Positions 3,536 to 49,070 of a stretch of 64,000 nt of DNA are shown here, piece after piece; position 1 is the first letter of the stretch, and every line of letters begins with the position of its first letter. Origin of the DNA: a virus; IMG/VR virus record IMGVR_UViG_3300035698_019240, positions 28,056-92,055 of that record. One strand, 5' to 3'. Under the pieces are notes generated by a model, which was given only the letters and a program-made list of their open reading frames with translations, did no database searches and was not told where the DNA came from. A program made the position numbers and the translations under genes.

Positions 3536-3859
3536 TTATATCTCCTTTTTTCTTAAATGTTTATAGTAAGCTTTTATTAATTTATTTATTTTTTTCCATA
3601 CCGAATCAGGTCTTGGCATATTAACATATTCAAATGTAGGCGGTTTCTCCAAATACCTTTTCAATTCAAAGTACTTGCATTTACCATCTGAGTTTAGATC
3701 AGTACATTTCAATCTAACAATATTTCCAGTAATAGGACAGATGTTACTCTTATCATGCTTACACCTGTAACCAGATGCCCCAAATTCAACAGAAGGATTA
3801 TACAAACTATGTTTACATTCTTGACATATTATCATTTTATCTTTTGTTCTTTTACCCAT
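3536..3859 (-). CDS. Cys-rich hypothetical protein
   Basis: 107 residues. The N-terminal half holds CQECKHSLYNPS, YRCKHDKSNICPITG and KCTDLNSDGKCKYFE, that is CxxC-H...C-x-H...C...C...C, a likely two-site zinc domain. The C-terminal half is basic and helical (WKKINKLIKAYYKHLRKK). The phrase DLNSDGKCKYFE is typical of small phage-encoded metal-binding proteins, but no function is known to me. Confidence 0.7.
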   Translation of the reverse strand: MGKRTKDKMIICQECKHSLYNPSVEFGASGYRCKHDKSNICPITGNIVRLKCTDLNSDGKCKYFELKRYLEKPPTFEYVNMPRPDSVWKKINKLIKAYYKHLRKKEI

Positions 3860-17030: not shown

Positions 17031-17857
17031 CCAACAGTTTTTCCATTTTCATCAACAACCCTTATAATACCACCTTTTTTAATTGTAGTTCTATAAAGAG
17101 GTGACATGTCAGAGAAACTTAAAGTTAATTCACATCTTGTTGGCAGTCCATTTATATATGGTTGTTGCCATGTAGGTTGTACAGAAGTCAGAGCCGCAAA
17201 TTGACATATTATGAGTTCATTCGGATGTGTTTTTAATTCAAAAATCCACGGAAGTTCAATACCTATATTCCAATCCCTAATTTCAGGTGAGGAATATTTC
17301 ATAAGGTCTTTTACTGGTTCCACTACATCTAGAGAAGGATTACTTTGTGATATCAAATTAAAAAGAAAATTCCATTCTCTTCTTCCAGAACCTGTAAATG
17401 TTAAAGGAGAATCAATCTTTTCTGTAGGTACTTTTGTTGCAAGTCCATTTGATATTTCATTAAATGCGGATCTTGCCCCAGAACCTAATTCTTTCCTTTT
17501 GGCTGAATCTCCAAGGGTATTTTTAATATTTTTTCCTATGGTTTTTACATCCCTAACAGTTTTTGAAGCTGTGATAGCTTTATTGGCAAGTGAGTTGACC
17601 GTTGAGTTTTCATAAGGAGACCAATCATTTCTAATTGTTTCCTGTATTACCTCAGGTGCTAAGAATTTAAAAGTTGGTCCTGTTTTACCTCTTGTTATTC
17701 CCCCACCTTTTGATAGAGTTGTTTGATATTTCAATTCTATTGCTTTCATTGTTATCCATAAAGCATTATCACCAAATGAACCTTGAGGAATTGTAGCACT
17801 TTCTTTTGGTCTTTGTATAGTTTGTGTTCCTGTATATGTAAAAGTATCCTTGGCCAT
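17027..17857 (-). CDS. Baseplate/tail-tube cap protein, T4 gp48-like (gp48/gp54 group)
   Basis: 276 residues (T4 gp48 is 364, gp54 is 320). The C-terminal half has the group's pattern: LTFTGSGRREWNFLF, SSPEIRDWNIGIELPWIFELKTHPNELIICQFAALTSV, then CELTLSFSDMSPLYRTTI. In T4 these proteins start and cap tube growth on the baseplate. It follows the tape measure gene directly, as genes 48 and 54 follow gene 29 in T4. The stop meets the rightward early operon. Confidence 0.8.
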   Translation of the reverse strand: MAKDTFTYTGTQTIQRPKESATIPQGSFGDNALWITMKAIELKYQTTLSKGGGITRGKTGPTFKFLAPEVIQETIRNDWSPYENSTVNSLANKAITASKTVRDVKTIGKNIKNTLGDSAKRKELGSGARSAFNEISNGLATKVPTEKIDSPLTFTGSGRREWNFLFNLISQSNPSLDVVEPVKDLMKYSSPEIRDWNIGIELPWIFELKTHPNELIICQFAALTSVQPTWQQPYINGLPTRCELTLSFSDMSPLYRTTIKKGGIIRVVDENGKTVG

Positions 17858-19743
17858 TAATAAGCTCCTTGTACAGCTAGTGATGTTATTATATTATCCA
17901 CTTCATCAGGTATTGGTCTTTCACTATCACCACCACCTTGTATATTACTTATAGCAGTTACAACTGAAACATTACCTTCTTGTGTCATTATTTCTGTTTT
18001 TTCCATAGCTTTTAATTGTTTTTCTTGTATCTTTCTATTCATATCTGATACATTTTTTTTATCAATTATACTGGATTGTATAACTACTTTTTTCATTTTA
18101 TTTATTTCGGTAAAATCTGATTTTCTTTTTACCGATTGTGGTAAATCAACAACATCTGCAGGTAAAACTCTTTCACCTCTATGTAGATTAACAAGTCCTG
18201 TTTTAACTATATCTCCACCTATTCTTCTACTTGGTATTTCTGTGACTTCAAGCTCTCCTTCCTTTTTTACTTTTCCACCAAATCCAAACATTCCTTTTAA
18301 TTTACCGAACATTTCTTTACCAGGAATAAGATCAGTAAAAAAATTAATAAGATTTTCAGTGGCGTCTTTGATAAGATCCAAGAATGAGAAGTCTTCCCAC
18401 ATAGTTTTTATTCCGTCTAAACCAGTTTTCAAACTATCAATAGGATGAAAAAATACATCTAAGATTCCATGTATAAAAGATTCAGCTTTTTCTGTAACCA
18501 AATTTATCTTTTCAATAATGTGTTCCATTCCAAAATCAAGTTTAACACCTTTTAAAAAATCTTCTCCAAATACTTTTCTTGAAAGCCATAGTAATCCATT
18601 ACCTATCATTTCAGGTATTGCTAATATAGGATCTAATAATCCAGCTGACATACCGAGTAATTTATCTCTAATAGTATCACCTTGAAAAATACCTGTAACG
18701 GCCTTTACTATCATTTCTACAGGTAATAATACCTTACCTATTATTTTACCTACTGAGAAAAACTTTCCCATTTTTCCAAAAATCCCTGTAAATTTGGTAA
18801 TGAATTTCATTGTAGATTCCACGAATTTACCTTTCATTAAATTACCAGCTTTAGAGAATGTACCACTAACGGTCTTTGTAAATTTTGTAAGTGATTTTCC
18901 TATACTACGAGCCTTGAACTTATTCAGTTTGCCTCTCAGTTCCGTTATTCTATCAAATTTCCAGCCATGAAATGCTTCTTGCATCTTAAAAATTTTAGAG
19001 CCTATAATACCGTTACCACCAAACATACTTGTTATTTTACCAAGTTTTGTACCTACACCTGTTCTAAATTTTATTAATATTTTTCCAAAAGATTTATTAA
19101 ACTTTGTCAGTGTTTTTCCAAAAACTTTGTTAAATTTAGTCATGGACTTAAAGAATGGAGGAAAAACATCTTTGAACTTTGAAATATAACCTACTATAAT
19201 ACCTGAAAGTAATGCGCCTGTAAAAAGAAGATATTTAAACACACCATCATCTTTAAATCCTTTATCACTTTGAAGATCCCATCTCTTTTGTTCCATTTTA
19301 AAATGATCTACAATTTGTCCAAGCATGGTATTTCTATTTTTATCAGTTTTAGATTCTTCCTCGTCATCCTCACCTTTACCAAACAATGCTTTTCCAATAC
19401 CAACAGTCGATTTAAGTGAACCTATAGCAACACTACTAACTTTAGTTAATTCTGGACCTAATACATCAGATGTTTGAGAGGCGACCTCTCCAACAACTTT
19501 ATCCATATCTCCCTTTATTATATTAGATATTGCTGAGGCTGTTGCTGACATTTCTTTACCAGCAACCTCTGCTACTTGTTTTCCAACTTCATCACCAGCC
19601 TTTTTAACATCATTTTTTATTACATCAGAAGTGTTGGAGAATTTTTTTAATATTCCACTAAAAAATCCTCTTGTTTGTTTCTGTGATGTCTCATTAGCTT
19701 GTTTTTGATTTTGTAGAATTTTTTCTAATTCTTCGTTAGCCAT
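17857..19743 (-). CDS. Tail tape measure / hub protein (T4 gp29 position)
   Basis: 628 residues. It starts with helical Q/K-rich sequence (EELEKILQNQKQANETSQK), a central run of amphipathic F/K/G repeats (FTKTVSGTF, KFITKFTGIFGKMGKFF), hydrophobic stretches near IIGKVLLPVEMIVKAVTGIF, and a C-terminal GLVNLHRGERVLPADVV box seen in many tape measure proteins. Tape measures set tail length and leave the tail with the DNA. Position between the gp26-like/frameshift gene and gp48-like gene supports the call. An intrinsic terminator lies only 12 bases before the start codon. Confidence 0.75.
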   Translation of the reverse strand: MANEELEKILQNQKQANETSQKQTRGFFSGILKKFSNTSDVIKNDVKKAGDEVGKQVAEVAGKEMSATASAISNIIKGDMDKVVGEVASQTSDVLGPELTKVSSVAIGSLKSTVGIGKALFGKGEDDEEESKTDKNRNTMLGQIVDHFKMEQKRWDLQSDKGFKDDGVFKYLLFTGALLSGIIVGYISKFKDVFPPFFKSMTKFNKVFGKTLTKFNKSFGKILIKFRTGVGTKLGKITSMFGGNGIIGSKIFKMQEAFHGWKFDRITELRGKLNKFKARSIGKSLTKFTKTVSGTFSKAGNLMKGKFVESTMKFITKFTGIFGKMGKFFSVGKIIGKVLLPVEMIVKAVTGIFQGDTIRDKLLGMSAGLLDPILAIPEMIGNGLLWLSRKVFGEDFLKGVKLDFGMEHIIEKINLVTEKAESFIHGILDVFFHPIDSLKTGLDGIKTMWEDFSFLDLIKDATENLINFFTDLIPGKEMFGKLKGMFGFGGKVKKEGELEVTEIPSRRIGGDIVKTGLVNLHRGERVLPADVVDLPQSVKRKSDFTEINKMKKVVIQSSIIDKKNVSDMNRKIQEKQLKAMEKTEIMTQEGNVSVVTAISNIQGGGDSERPIPDEVDNIITSLAVQGAY

Positions 19744-19754
19744 ATACTCTCCAT

Positions 19755-19793
19755 AAAAAAAGGTCTAAAGAACTGTACGCCCTTTAGACCTTT
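19755..19793 (-). terminator. Intrinsic terminator just upstream of the tape measure gene
   Basis: On the minus strand AAAGGTCTAAAG, an 11-base loop, CTTTAGACCTTT and then a T-run: a 12-bp stem with U-tract. It ends about 12 bases before the tape measure ATG at 19743. It would cut or reduce read-through from the tube and gp26-like genes into the tape measure gene. Confidence 0.85.
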
Positions 19794-19829: not shown

Positions 19830-20009
19830 CTATAATTCAGATTCCTCTTTCAAGTCATTTTTTAACATATTAATGTAAGCTTCTCTTTCAAAGTCTGGTA
19901 AATAACTACTTTCAGTAATACTTATACCCGCTTTTCGCGATAGATAGTATTGTTCTTCCACAATAGTTTCAAGACTTACATTAGTAAACAGATTAACTAG
20001 ACGAAAAAA
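19830..20009 (-). CDS. Predicted -1 frameshift extension of the gp26-like protein
   Basis: The gp26-like gene ends GAA GGT TTT TTC GTC TAG. The heptamer T TTT TTC (20009-20003) is in the phase needed for -1 slippage. After it the -1 frame is open for 59 codons to TAG at 19832-19830 with sensible sequence (RLVNLFTNVSLETIVEEQYY, SRKAGISITESSYLPDFERE, YINMLKNDLKEESEL). The -1 frame has a TGA just before the slip site and no ATG until near its end, so independent initiation is unlikely. The result would be a fusion of about 305 residues. T4 places gene 51 here. Confidence 0.7.
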   Translation of the reverse strand, partial: FFRLVNLFTNVSLETIVEEQYYLSRKAGISITESSYLPDFEREAYINMLKNDLKEESEL

Positions 20010-20746
20010 CCTTCAGTAGGTACATTCACCGTTTCCTTTCTCTTACAATGGACACATTTAAAAATAAATTTAAATTCCATTCCAAAGTCATTATCTTTAT
20101 GCCATTTTTTAACTTTATCATAACCGTCTGTTGGACAATTTTCTAAAAGAAATTGTTTGTCCAATAACTCTGGTGCTTCTTTACCTTTAGGTGTTTTTAC
20201 AGATTCAATAGAAGCGGCATGTGTTAATATGGTCATTTCTGTATCTTTTTGTGTTTTAGTCATTTCATTATAACTTTCAATATTTTTAAGGGTTTCAAAT
20301 GCTTCAATATTATGTTTCCTTTTTATATATACAAGTTTTACAGAAATGTCTTTATCCACTTTTACCCATTGATCTACTTTTGTAGGTTTCTTAACCTTCA
20401 TTTTACCTATATCAATAGATTGAAGTGTGTCAGATTTACACTTTTTATTATTACATGTATGTGTAAATGTATATTTACTTCCTTTTGTTCTTTTTCTTAT
20501 TTCTACAAGAAGTTGAAATCTATCTTGTAAGTATAAATCCGTTATATCAAAATCTTCCGTTATGATAGCTGAGGACATTAGTTTATCTAATGCTTCCTCT
20601 ATTACCATAGGATCGGTTTCACCTTCATATGTCAAAAGAGTTTTCAATTGACCGGTAGTGATGGGTTTAAATTTAACCTTTTTACCACTACCTGGTAAAA
20701 CACAATCAAATTCATACACATTTAAAAATTCACGAAAATCACTCAT
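19997..20746 (-). CDS. T4 gp26-like baseplate hub / tail assembly protein
   Basis: 249 residues (T4 gp26 is 208). It reads as a folded N-terminal part (PGSGKKVKFKPITTGQLKTLLTY), a zinc-finger-like CNNKKCKSD segment near residue 120, a helical LTHAASIESV part and a final FKCVHCKRKETVNVP ribbon. T4 gp26 acts in baseplate hub assembly. Its place between tube and tape measure is also where tail assembly chaperones with programmed frameshifts lie in other phages, and a -1 frameshift signal overlaps its stop. Confidence 0.7.
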   Translation of the reverse strand: MSDFREFLNVYEFDCVLPGSGKKVKFKPITTGQLKTLLTYEGETDPMVIEEALDKLMSSAIITEDFDITDLYLQDRFQLLVEIRKRTKGSKYTFTHTCNNKKCKSDTLQSIDIGKMKVKKPTKVDQWVKVDKDISVKLVYIKRKHNIEAFETLKNIESYNEMTKTQKDTEMTILTHAASIESVKTPKGKEAPELLDKQFLLENCPTDGYDKVKKWHKDNDFGMEFKFIFKCVHCKRKETVNVPTEGFFV

Positions 20747-20777: not shown

Positions 20778-21296
20778 TTATTCTATAGTATGATATTGAT
20801 AACCAAATGTTATATCAAACTGTGCTGTATCATTTGAAGAATAATCTAATGTAACAGCACCCAAAGTTTTTGGATAACTGTGATGAAGTTTATAATCTAT
20901 TAATGATGCTCCATCCATGGATAAAAGCTGTAATCTTTGTACGGGTACCATATAATCATCTATACTACCATGTACATTTGTAACAGGATTATGTATTAGT
21001 GTTAACCAATTATTATATTTTTTTAAAATAGCAGCATCTTTATCAACATTAAATGTAACTGTAAAATCTGCAAAAGTATGTTTACCTGCCATCTTGAAAT
21101 CATATCCTTGCCAGTTCGTTGTTATATCTTCCAACGACATTTCTGGTAAAGTAGTACTTCGTACAAGATATGTAACTTTCTCACTTGTTAACCCTCCTGA
21201 AATAGCTCCAGGAAATGTAGGTAAGAAGTAGAAAAGGTACGCTCTTGCTCCGCCTTCAAAATTAGCTTTAAAACTTTCTATGTCAAAATTAGGCAT
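20778..21296 (-). CDS. Tail tube protein, T4 gp19-like
   Basis: 172 residues (T4 gp19 is 163). Typical features: LVRSTTLPEMSLEDITTNWQG, GKHTFADFTVTFNVDKD, a W-L-x-L-I-H-N-P region and the end GAVTLDYSSNDTAQFDITFGYQYH. It polymerises as hexameric rings inside the sheath. Directly follows the sheath gene, the T4 order 18-19. Confidence 0.88.
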   Translation of the reverse strand: MPNFDIESFKANFEGGARAYLFYFLPTFPGAISGGLTSEKVTYLVRSTTLPEMSLEDITTNWQGYDFKMAGKHTFADFTVTFNVDKDAAILKKYNNWLTLIHNPVTNVHGSIDDYMVPVQRLQLLSMDGASLIDYKLHHSYPKTLGAVTLDYSSNDTAQFDITFGYQYHTIE

Positions 21297-23173: not shown

Positions 23174-23683
23174 TTATTCAATAGCACGAATTTCAAATCT
23201 ATTATATACAAATGACGCCTGACATTCTAAAAGACTTTCACCTTCTCTTTGGGATAATGATACCTCGCCTAACATATTAGGCCAAACATCTACAAAAAAG
23301 ATTTTTAAAGTTTCATTGTGAAAATTATCAATAATTCTTAATGTTGCGTCTACTGTATAATTTTTATAATCTTCTGAAAATTTATCTTTAGAATTATTGA
23401 TGTACATTATCCATTTAAATAGTAACTGCCAGTTTTTAAATTCCGAATCAACAAGGAAATTTACATTCCATTGTTCCCATTCTGCTTTACCTGTAGCCTT
23501 TGTTCTTTTTGTTCCCATCCAATCATCAATACCTGTTTCTAATGTTAAACTAGGAATGATTGTTGAAAATATATTTAAAGTGAGTTCATCATTATCTTTA
23601 AAACCAGCAGCTCTTGGTATAAGAGGAAATACTAATTCAAAATTTGTTGGCGAACTTTTATTTACTTGTGTAGCGAGAGCCAT
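23174..23683 (-). CDS. Tail tube-like protein
   Basis: 169 residues. FELVFPLIPRAAGFKDNDELTLNIF, SLTLETGIDDWMGTKRTK, GKAEWEQWNVNFLVDSEFKNW, and a C-terminal NMLGEVSLSQREGESLLECQASFVYNRFEI. The layout follows tail tube proteins, so this is probably a second tube-fold protein, for example a tube-end or connector protein next to gp15. Located between gp15-like and sheath genes. Confidence 0.65.
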   Translation of the reverse strand: MALATQVNKSSPTNFELVFPLIPRAAGFKDNDELTLNIFSTIIPSLTLETGIDDWMGTKRTKATGKAEWEQWNVNFLVDSEFKNWQLLFKWIMYINNSKDKFSEDYKNYTVDATLRIIDNFHNETLKIFFVDVWPNMLGEVSLSQREGESLLECQASFVYNRFEIRAIE

Positions 23684-47661: not shown

Positions 47662-48177
47662 TTAATTTTTCTCCAATAATTTCCATCCTTCCATATTATT
47701 TATATAGTGATCATCAATATCATCTGGTTCACATGAAAACCAATCAATATTATTAAATTTTATCTCTACAAAAGAATAGGACCAAGCAACAAGGCTTGAA
47801 CATACTTGATTTCTGAAACTCTTATCCATTCTACTAAATTTGTTTGTAAAAAAAATATGATCTAAAAATTGTAAAAATATTCTTTTCCAACTATAAGGTT
47901 TACCAACTACAGTATTGCACGCTTCTATAAGTATACTCTTATCTTTATTGGTTAATTTTTTATATCTTATTATCTTATATTTTTTTGATCTCTTTCTTTT
48001 AAACACTTCACTCAACGATACTAATCGTACACTATTCTTTGCTTCAAATGCACTACTAGAATTTTTAACTAAAAGGCAATGACCCCATCTTACAGGATCT
48101 TTTTGAAAAAGATCCATAAATTTAACAATTAGGGAATCTTTTGATGTAAATATTATATCACCTGTATCCAATTTCAT
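47662..48177 (-). CDS. Permuted papain-like (NlpC/P60, YiiX-type) peptidase
   Basis: About 171 residues from MKLDTGDIIFTSKD, the ATG sharing bases with the previous stop (TAATG). Catalytic pattern of the circularly permuted family: GDIIF...RWGHCLLV with the His, then NQVCSSLVAWSYS with the Cys and an IDWFSCEPDDI segment. Members act on peptidoglycan peptides or lipid substrates. Located beside internal and fibre proteins, so a role in cell-wall penetration or lysis is possible. Confidence 0.72.
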   Translation of the reverse strand: MKLDTGDIIFTSKDSLIVKFMDLFQKDPVRWGHCLLVKNSSSAFEAKNSVRLVSLSEVFKRKRSKKYKIIRYKKLTNKDKSILIEACNTVVGKPYSWKRIFLQFLDHIFFTNKFSRMDKSFRNQVCSSLVAWSYSFVEIKFNNIDWFSCEPDDIDDHYINNMEGWKLLEKN

Positions 48178-49070
48178 TATAGTTGTTTCTCTCTGTTCAG
48201 TGTTAATGTTACAGCTGCACTCCAATCATGATCTGGTGTATTTGTGTAAGTTGTTATTTTAAATCTCATACCATGTCCTATTTCATCAACATCTGCTGAC
48301 TGCATTCTAACAAACCCAAAATTTAAGAAGTTCATTTTATTTACAAATCTTGATATAGGCACTTCAACACTAAACATATTATATTGGCCGTTGCCATACG
48401 GTGCTGCTGATATATGTTCAAATTGTTGTGTTGTTGTATTCCAGTCTGCATTCCAGTAAGCAGGTGGTTGGTTACCTTCATCATCAATAGGTATAAAAAT
48501 TAATCCACCTGTTGAAGGCATTGTACCAGTTTCGGATATGTTATCTATATTTATTGTACCATTTCCTGCAGCGGGTATAATAAGAAATCCACCATAAACA
48601 TTAAAGTATGTTCCTGACGAGACCGTTGTTGGGGTAACTCTTGGAACAATTTCAAAACTAACATTATCAAATTTTGTATTCTCCCAAGTTACATATCCTT
48701 CATGAATCCATGTTTCGTTTTCTATGATATTAAAATCAAAATAATGTGCTTCTACGGCTGGGCCTCCGGAAACATGAAAGAACTGAAATGGGTCTCCACC
48801 ACCAACATCTGTTGGATCACTTGGATCGTCTCCTGCTCCTGTCCAGTATATTTTTGTTCCTATTTTTCTTGACGTTTCATGAACTCTTTGTTTACCAGAC
48901 CTATCAACATGATTTACACTTAATTTTTTACTAACTATTGCTGTTTTATTAACATTAATAGAGTGTGTAATATTATCAGGACATACAGTAGGTTCTTCCT
49001 CTGACCATTTCATAACCCATTTACTATCTGTATTACACCAAATTCTATATTTATCTAAATCTTTACGCAT
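48177..49070 (-). CDS. Fibre-array structural protein
   Basis: 297 residues, beta-rich: MRKDLDKYRIWCNTDSKWVMKWSEEEPTVCPDN start with a C-x-x-T-D and T-V-C-P-D-N pair, then long strands (YFNVYGGFLIIPAAGNGTINI, GLIFIPIDDEGNQPPAYWNADW). The W-C-N-T-D-S-K and PTVCPDN phrases occur in phage decoration or adhesin proteins. It lies at the end of the array 53700-48177. No family name. Confidence 0.6.
   Translation of the reverse strand: MRKDLDKYRIWCNTDSKWVMKWSEEEPTVCPDNITHSINVNKTAIVSKKLSVNHVDRSGKQRVHETSRKIGTKIYWTGAGDDPSDPTDVGGGDPFQFFHVSGGPAVEAHYFDFNIIENETWIHEGYVTWENTKFDNVSFEIVPRVTPTTVSSGTYFNVYGGFLIIPAAGNGTINIDNISETGTMPSTGGLIFIPIDDEGNQPPAYWNADWNTTTQQFEHISAAPYGNGQYNMFSVEVPISRFVNKMNFLNFGFVRMQSADVDEIGHGMRFKITTYTNTPDHDWSAAVTLTLNREKQL

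Follow-up and report, generated by a model that had tools for sequence, protein, structure and literature searches.

How does a virus express a gp51-like domain that lies in the -1 frame behind its gp26-like gene and has no usable start codon of its own? The question is raised by a locus on the minus strand of the window (the whole stretch of 64,000 nucleotides that was analyzed, part of a 92-kb record), for which an earlier note had proposed a programmed -1 frameshift. The features concerned are the following.

20778..21296, minus strand: tail tube protein, upstream of the gp26-like gene (phrog_45, E = 1.3e-35)
19997..20746, minus strand: gp26-like gene, predicted short tail assembly chaperone (TAC-N, the role of lambda gpG), 249 aa (PF12322, phrog_150)
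20003..20009, minus strand: slippery heptamer T_TTT_TTC in the gp26 phase (from the sequence; same motif and place in relatives)
19997..19999, minus strand: zero-frame stop TAG, overlapped by the -1 codon GTT (ATG in the near relatives L001/L002, GTG in L003)
19830..20002, minus strand: -1 frame extension of 57 codons plus stop, gp51-like C-terminal domain (predicted TAC-C, the role of lambda T; phrog_634, alignment with 34 relatives)
17857..19743, minus strand: putative tape measure gene, 628 aa, downstream (by position and length only)

The best explanation of this arrangement is very probably a programmed -1 frameshift of the lambda G/GT type, which would give a short and a fused tail assembly chaperone. 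It is supported by the retention of the heptamer across very divergent relatives and, further, by gp51 homology confined to the -1 frame, by an extension that lacks a usable start and is under purifying selection, and by the position of the locus. In the proposed mechanism, most ribosomes would halt at the TAG codon, giving the 249-aa gp26-like protein, and a minority would slip back by one base on T_TTT_TTC, with the Phe tRNAs re-pairing on TTT TTT, and read 57 more codons to produce a gp26-gp51 fusion of 305 aa. The chaperone function of the gp26-gp51 products is predicted from the analogy with lambda gpG and gpGT: the gp26 portion common to both forms would coat the tape measure protein, and tail tube subunits would be recruited by the C-terminal portion. 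Sequence and comparison, in which the signal, its conservation, the gp51 homology and the selection on the extension can be read directly, give high confidence that the frameshift signal is real; we infer that slippage would take place in the host of the phage at some rate and that the fusion would be produced.

The first gene was correctly named gp26-like, since it matches PF12322 above the curated cut-off (67 bits against 24.5, E = 2.6e-18) as well as phrog_150 (E = 1.3e-19). Its protein shares at most about 54% identity with the relatives aligned. The AlphaFold model (pLDDT 91) matched T4-like baseplate hub proteins in a BFVD fold search, with E-values down to 1e-14. The gp26 family has no significant match in sequence or fold to solved tail assembly chaperones: a PDB sequence search returned no match, and in the PDB fold search the HK97 tail assembly chaperone 2ob9 ranked 2nd and 22nd with non-significant E-values of 0.34 and 2.3. 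The locus does lie just before the tape measure gene, as proposed, between the phrog_45 tail tube gene and a putative tape measure ORF (17857..19743), which is assigned by position and length only and had no family match in profile searches. This place resembles that of lambda G/GT, where a short chaperone and its -1 frameshifted long form are likewise encoded between the tail tube and tape measure genes (the latter putative in the window). The lambda slippery sequence, G_GGA_AAG, is a different one.

The 3' end of the gp26-like gene reads GAA GGT TTT TTC GTC TAG on the minus strand, and the heptamer was found in the correct phase at 20009-20003, as previously stated. It had been placed two codons before the zero-frame stop; in fact, a single sense codon (GTC) separates it from TAG. 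Reading in the -1 frame meets no stop between 20012 and 19833 and ends at the stop 19832-19830, so that 57 codons follow the slip and the predicted fusion has 305 aa compared with 249 aa for the unshifted product. In agreement with the description of this frame as lacking a usable start, its only ATG, GTG or TTG codons are GTG 19961, ATG 19868 and TTG 19853. The first of these, at residue 15, falls inside the conserved part of the extension and has no Shine-Dalgarno sequence, its anti-SD energy being -0.9 kcal/mol against -4.2 to -11.9 kcal/mol for eight neighbouring genes. Positions 61-109 of the 121 in phrog_634 (gp51) are matched by the extension (E = 1.8e-5), the sole phrog_634 match in the 92-kb record. 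The extension aligns end to end across 34 unique relatives. Read in the -1 frame, the window differs from them by 0.43 at the first, 0.25 at the second and 0.54 at the third codon position; the extension is under protein-level (purifying) selection because these differences follow a coding-frame pattern.

This constraint bears on the idea that the locus is a pseudogene or a sequencing error, in which the gp51 start was lost or one base is missing from the assembly. The record is an uncultivated virus contig and a single base change would convert GTT to GTG, but dozens of contigs obtained from other samples have the same start-less arrangement and the extension is constrained as a protein, which leaves this explanation with hardly any probability.

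As for chance, a local first-order Markov model gives a probability of about 0.006 for an open frame of 57 codons. The window has 77 ORFs that are 100 aa or longer. A reachable heptamer in the right phase lies near the end of six of these, and only the gp26-like gene combines T_TTT_TTC near its stop with a long -1 extension. It counts against the frameshift reading that TTTTTTC occurs in 29 copies on the minus strand of the window, runs of six T being common in T-rich DNA. One other candidate, A_AAA_AAG near the stop of the ORF 3859..3536 (minus strand) with a -1 frame of 91 codons, was rejected because its A-run serves the next gene as ribosome-binding site.

Conservation of the heptamer in relatives, a check that the earlier note had proposed, gave a clear result, although the sequences counted are related and do not represent independent trials. 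In 80 of 80 cyanophage-type contigs (a set fetched with a gp26 alignment), T_TTT_TTC is found exactly 10 nt ahead of the gp26 stop, and the 39 nearer relatives (35 of them unique) all have an in-phase T_TTT_TTN 7-10 nt ahead of it. In the cyanophage set, neither codon of the heptamer varies synonymously (80/80 TTT, 80/80 TTC); over 204 testable columns of this set the median synonymous identity is 0.53, and both TTT and TTC occur at other Phe columns. Thus, a protein-level need for Phe-Phe is not the explanation. Most of the named T4-like phages checked also carry the heptamer at the gp26 end. The signal is present in 17 named phages, among them P-SSM2, S-RSM4, S-CAM9, S-CREM2, Melnitz-3, Pelagibacter HTVC008M, C48C1, Caulobacter Cr30, Desulfovibrio 7757, Stenotrophomonas BUCT608, Acidovorax ACP17, Delftia PhiW-14, Vibrio Bakedbeans, the Straboviridae phages Vibrio phi-Grn1 and Aeromonas PX29, and Rhizobium RHph_I1_9, where it is spelled T_TTT_TTG. 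The remark that T4 relatives are not known for such frameshifting therefore does not hold, as cyanophages, Vibrio and Aeromonas Straboviridae and others carry the same signal.

The start codons of these relatives bear on another route to gp51, namely its translation as a separate gene by termination-reinitiation at the gp26 stop. Relatives with an ATG-initiated gene at this place had been named in advance as evidence against frameshifting. Such starts do occur, overlapping the stop as TAATG in L001/L002 and L133 and as TAGTG in L003, but only in 3 of the 35 unique near relatives, and these keep the heptamer too. In the other near relatives the -1 codon at the overlap is mostly ATT, ATA or ATC, and in the window it is GTT, with the first start (GTG) 15 residues in and without a Shine-Dalgarno sequence. 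Most near relatives lack a canonical start at the beginning of gp51, so that ribosomes would reach this domain mainly through a fusion with gp26. Reinitiation is also favored by an ATG just after the gp26 stop in 57 of the 80 cyanophage-type contigs; against it, S-RSM4, Sf-CH1b and Melnitz-3 have no ATG, GTG or TTG ahead of the conserved gp51 domain. Several phages keep the gp26-gp51 arrangement with no canonical heptamer near the stop, including the Ackermannviridae phiA8-29, VP-1, PC3 and LIMEstone1 as well as Vibrio D531 and Rhizobium RHph_I1_18. These exceptions mostly have TAATG at the gp26 stop, and the gp26 genes of Vibrio D531 and the Ackermannviridae end in CTT TTC, ATT TTC or GTT TTT. 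Another route to gp51 therefore exists in the family, and the heptamer-less phages may use reinitiation or a non-canonical slip. For the window, reinitiation is improbable as the explanation.

The programmed ribosomal frameshift can also be compared with slippage of transcription on the T run, which would produce mixed mRNAs joining both frames. Many near relatives have a T9 run (AAT TTT TTT TTC) that would suit the latter, but in the window, as in all 80 cyanophage-type contigs, the run is only a T6 that ends in C, which is short for efficient transcriptional slippage. Moreover, the cyanophages carry an SD-like element and an RNA hairpin typical of ribosomal frameshifting, and transcriptional slippage is accordingly very unlikely. 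The SD-like element is located 5-13 nt upstream of the heptamer in 94% of the cyanophage set, compared with 11% expected from the gene body. The near relatives of the window have it in 14% of sequences (11% expected), and the window itself has no SD-like element at this spacing.

In the main cyanophage subgroup, a 13-bp hairpin starts 5 nt downstream of the heptamer. In 50 subgroup sequences, 91.7% of the cells pair compared with 30-52% in slid controls, a percentage that leans towards structure because these sequences were picked from 74 after the fold was seen and the structure was read off members of the same set. The stronger part of the evidence is the compensatory changes: the covariation score was reached by none of 500 shuffles, and one pair is seen as U-A, G-C and A-U. 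A consensus fold across all 79 cyanophage sequences gave nothing, the hairpin being clear only in the main subgroup. In the window, no hairpin or unusual structure was found downstream of the heptamer (fold z = +0.3), and the lack of both stimulators counts against the frameshift reading. The Kyanoviridae share with the window the gp26 and gp51 families, the heptamer, its place and the frame relation, and differ in their SD-like element and covarying hairpin, both missing from the window, and in a gp26 identity of only about 18-33%.

T4 has the same two domains as the window in another arrangement, with genes 26 and 51 on opposite strands as separate genes and no heptamer. Residues 1-201 of T4 gp51 match PF12322 (E = 3.9e-52), residues 147-246 match phrog_634 (E = 1e-23), and a BLASTP comparison of T4 gp51 with gp26 gave E = 2e-6. 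T4 gp51 is therefore a second gp26-like domain with a C-terminal piece, and T4 encodes short and long chaperones as two paralogous genes. The extension had been equated with the place of T4 gene 51; the correspondence is good for the last ~50-60 residues of T4 gp51 and fails for the first ~200, which are the second gp26-like domain. This composition also explains why a passage of a 2010 paper (PMC3037559) found the first ~200 residues missing from the gp51 of cyanophages and vibriophages, and why cyanophage gp51 looked "truncated". The gp26 genes of T4, GiZh and Gravdalen, which serve as the Tevenvirinae control, keep Phe-Phe, spelled GAR TTC TTT, and have no heptamer; all three phages have a separate full-length gp51, which in T4 contains the gp26 domain. 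A gp51 of the T4 type, with 80% or more of its length aligned, is found in 1,334 phage records; most of the matches listed are phages of enterobacteria, Acinetobacter and Aeromonas, and none of those listed is a cyanophage. No T4-type second gene with a gp26-like domain fused to a gp51 domain was found in the 92-kb record, which is possibly incomplete and contains one PF12322 match over the cut-off and one phrog_634 match. A 187-aa ORF at 47662-48225 (minus strand) has a weak PF12322 match below threshold, probably by chance.

Vladimirov et al. 2022 (Virology 566:9-15) reportedly identified T4-like tail assembly chaperones, in a work that, judging by its title, argues for their production by a mechanism other than frameshifting. 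With reference to it, a passage of PMC10274946 describes some T4-like phages as having a short gene and a longer fusion gene, and a passage of PMC12846349 credits it with poly-T slippery sequences in the TAC-N genes of T4-like phages. The latter source also describes -1 frameshifting in the TAC of Vandenendeviridae and Andersonviridae, with a poly-T motif (GTTTTT) at the TAC-N end; by description only, the window is alike in its proposed frameshift and in having a poly-T motif at this place, and differs from it in the motif itself. Since the earlier literature, as represented by these citing passages, already has T4-like chaperones with poly-T slippery sites, the kind of system is known, which also speaks against the supposed absence of frameshifting from T4 relatives. 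To this known kind the locus adds a further member, from an uncultivated lineage.

According to the relevant passage of a 2016 review (PMC5009743), long-tailed phages widely conserve G/GT frameshifting "except T4". The present comparison confines this exception to the branch of T4 itself (Tevenvirinae and similar phages) and offers a simple route between the one-gene frameshift and two-gene solutions. We lean slightly towards a history in which one-gene -1 frameshifting is widespread and probably ancestral in T4-like phages, in the Tevenvirinae type a duplicated and fused gene took its place and the heptamer was lost afterwards, and the lineage of the window keeps a bare heptamer without the cyanophage stimulators, with gp51 made only as a fusion.

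In several public genomes gp51 is misannotated, being begun at an internal Met or omitted (S-RSM4, Sf-CH1b, Melnitz-3, ACP17, HTVC008M and C48C1); in S-RSM4 and Melnitz-3 it is annotated from an internal Met and in Sf-CH1b it is unannotated. In the window, a hairpin followed by a T run, resembling an intrinsic terminator, lies at 19759-19793 (minus strand; fold z = -5.4) in the gap that separates the gp51 extension from the putative tape measure gene, and its T run abuts the ribosome-binding site of the next gene. A second phrog_45 gene at 23174-23683 (minus strand) flanks the sheath gene together with the copy at 20778-21296, suggesting that the tail tube protein is duplicated.
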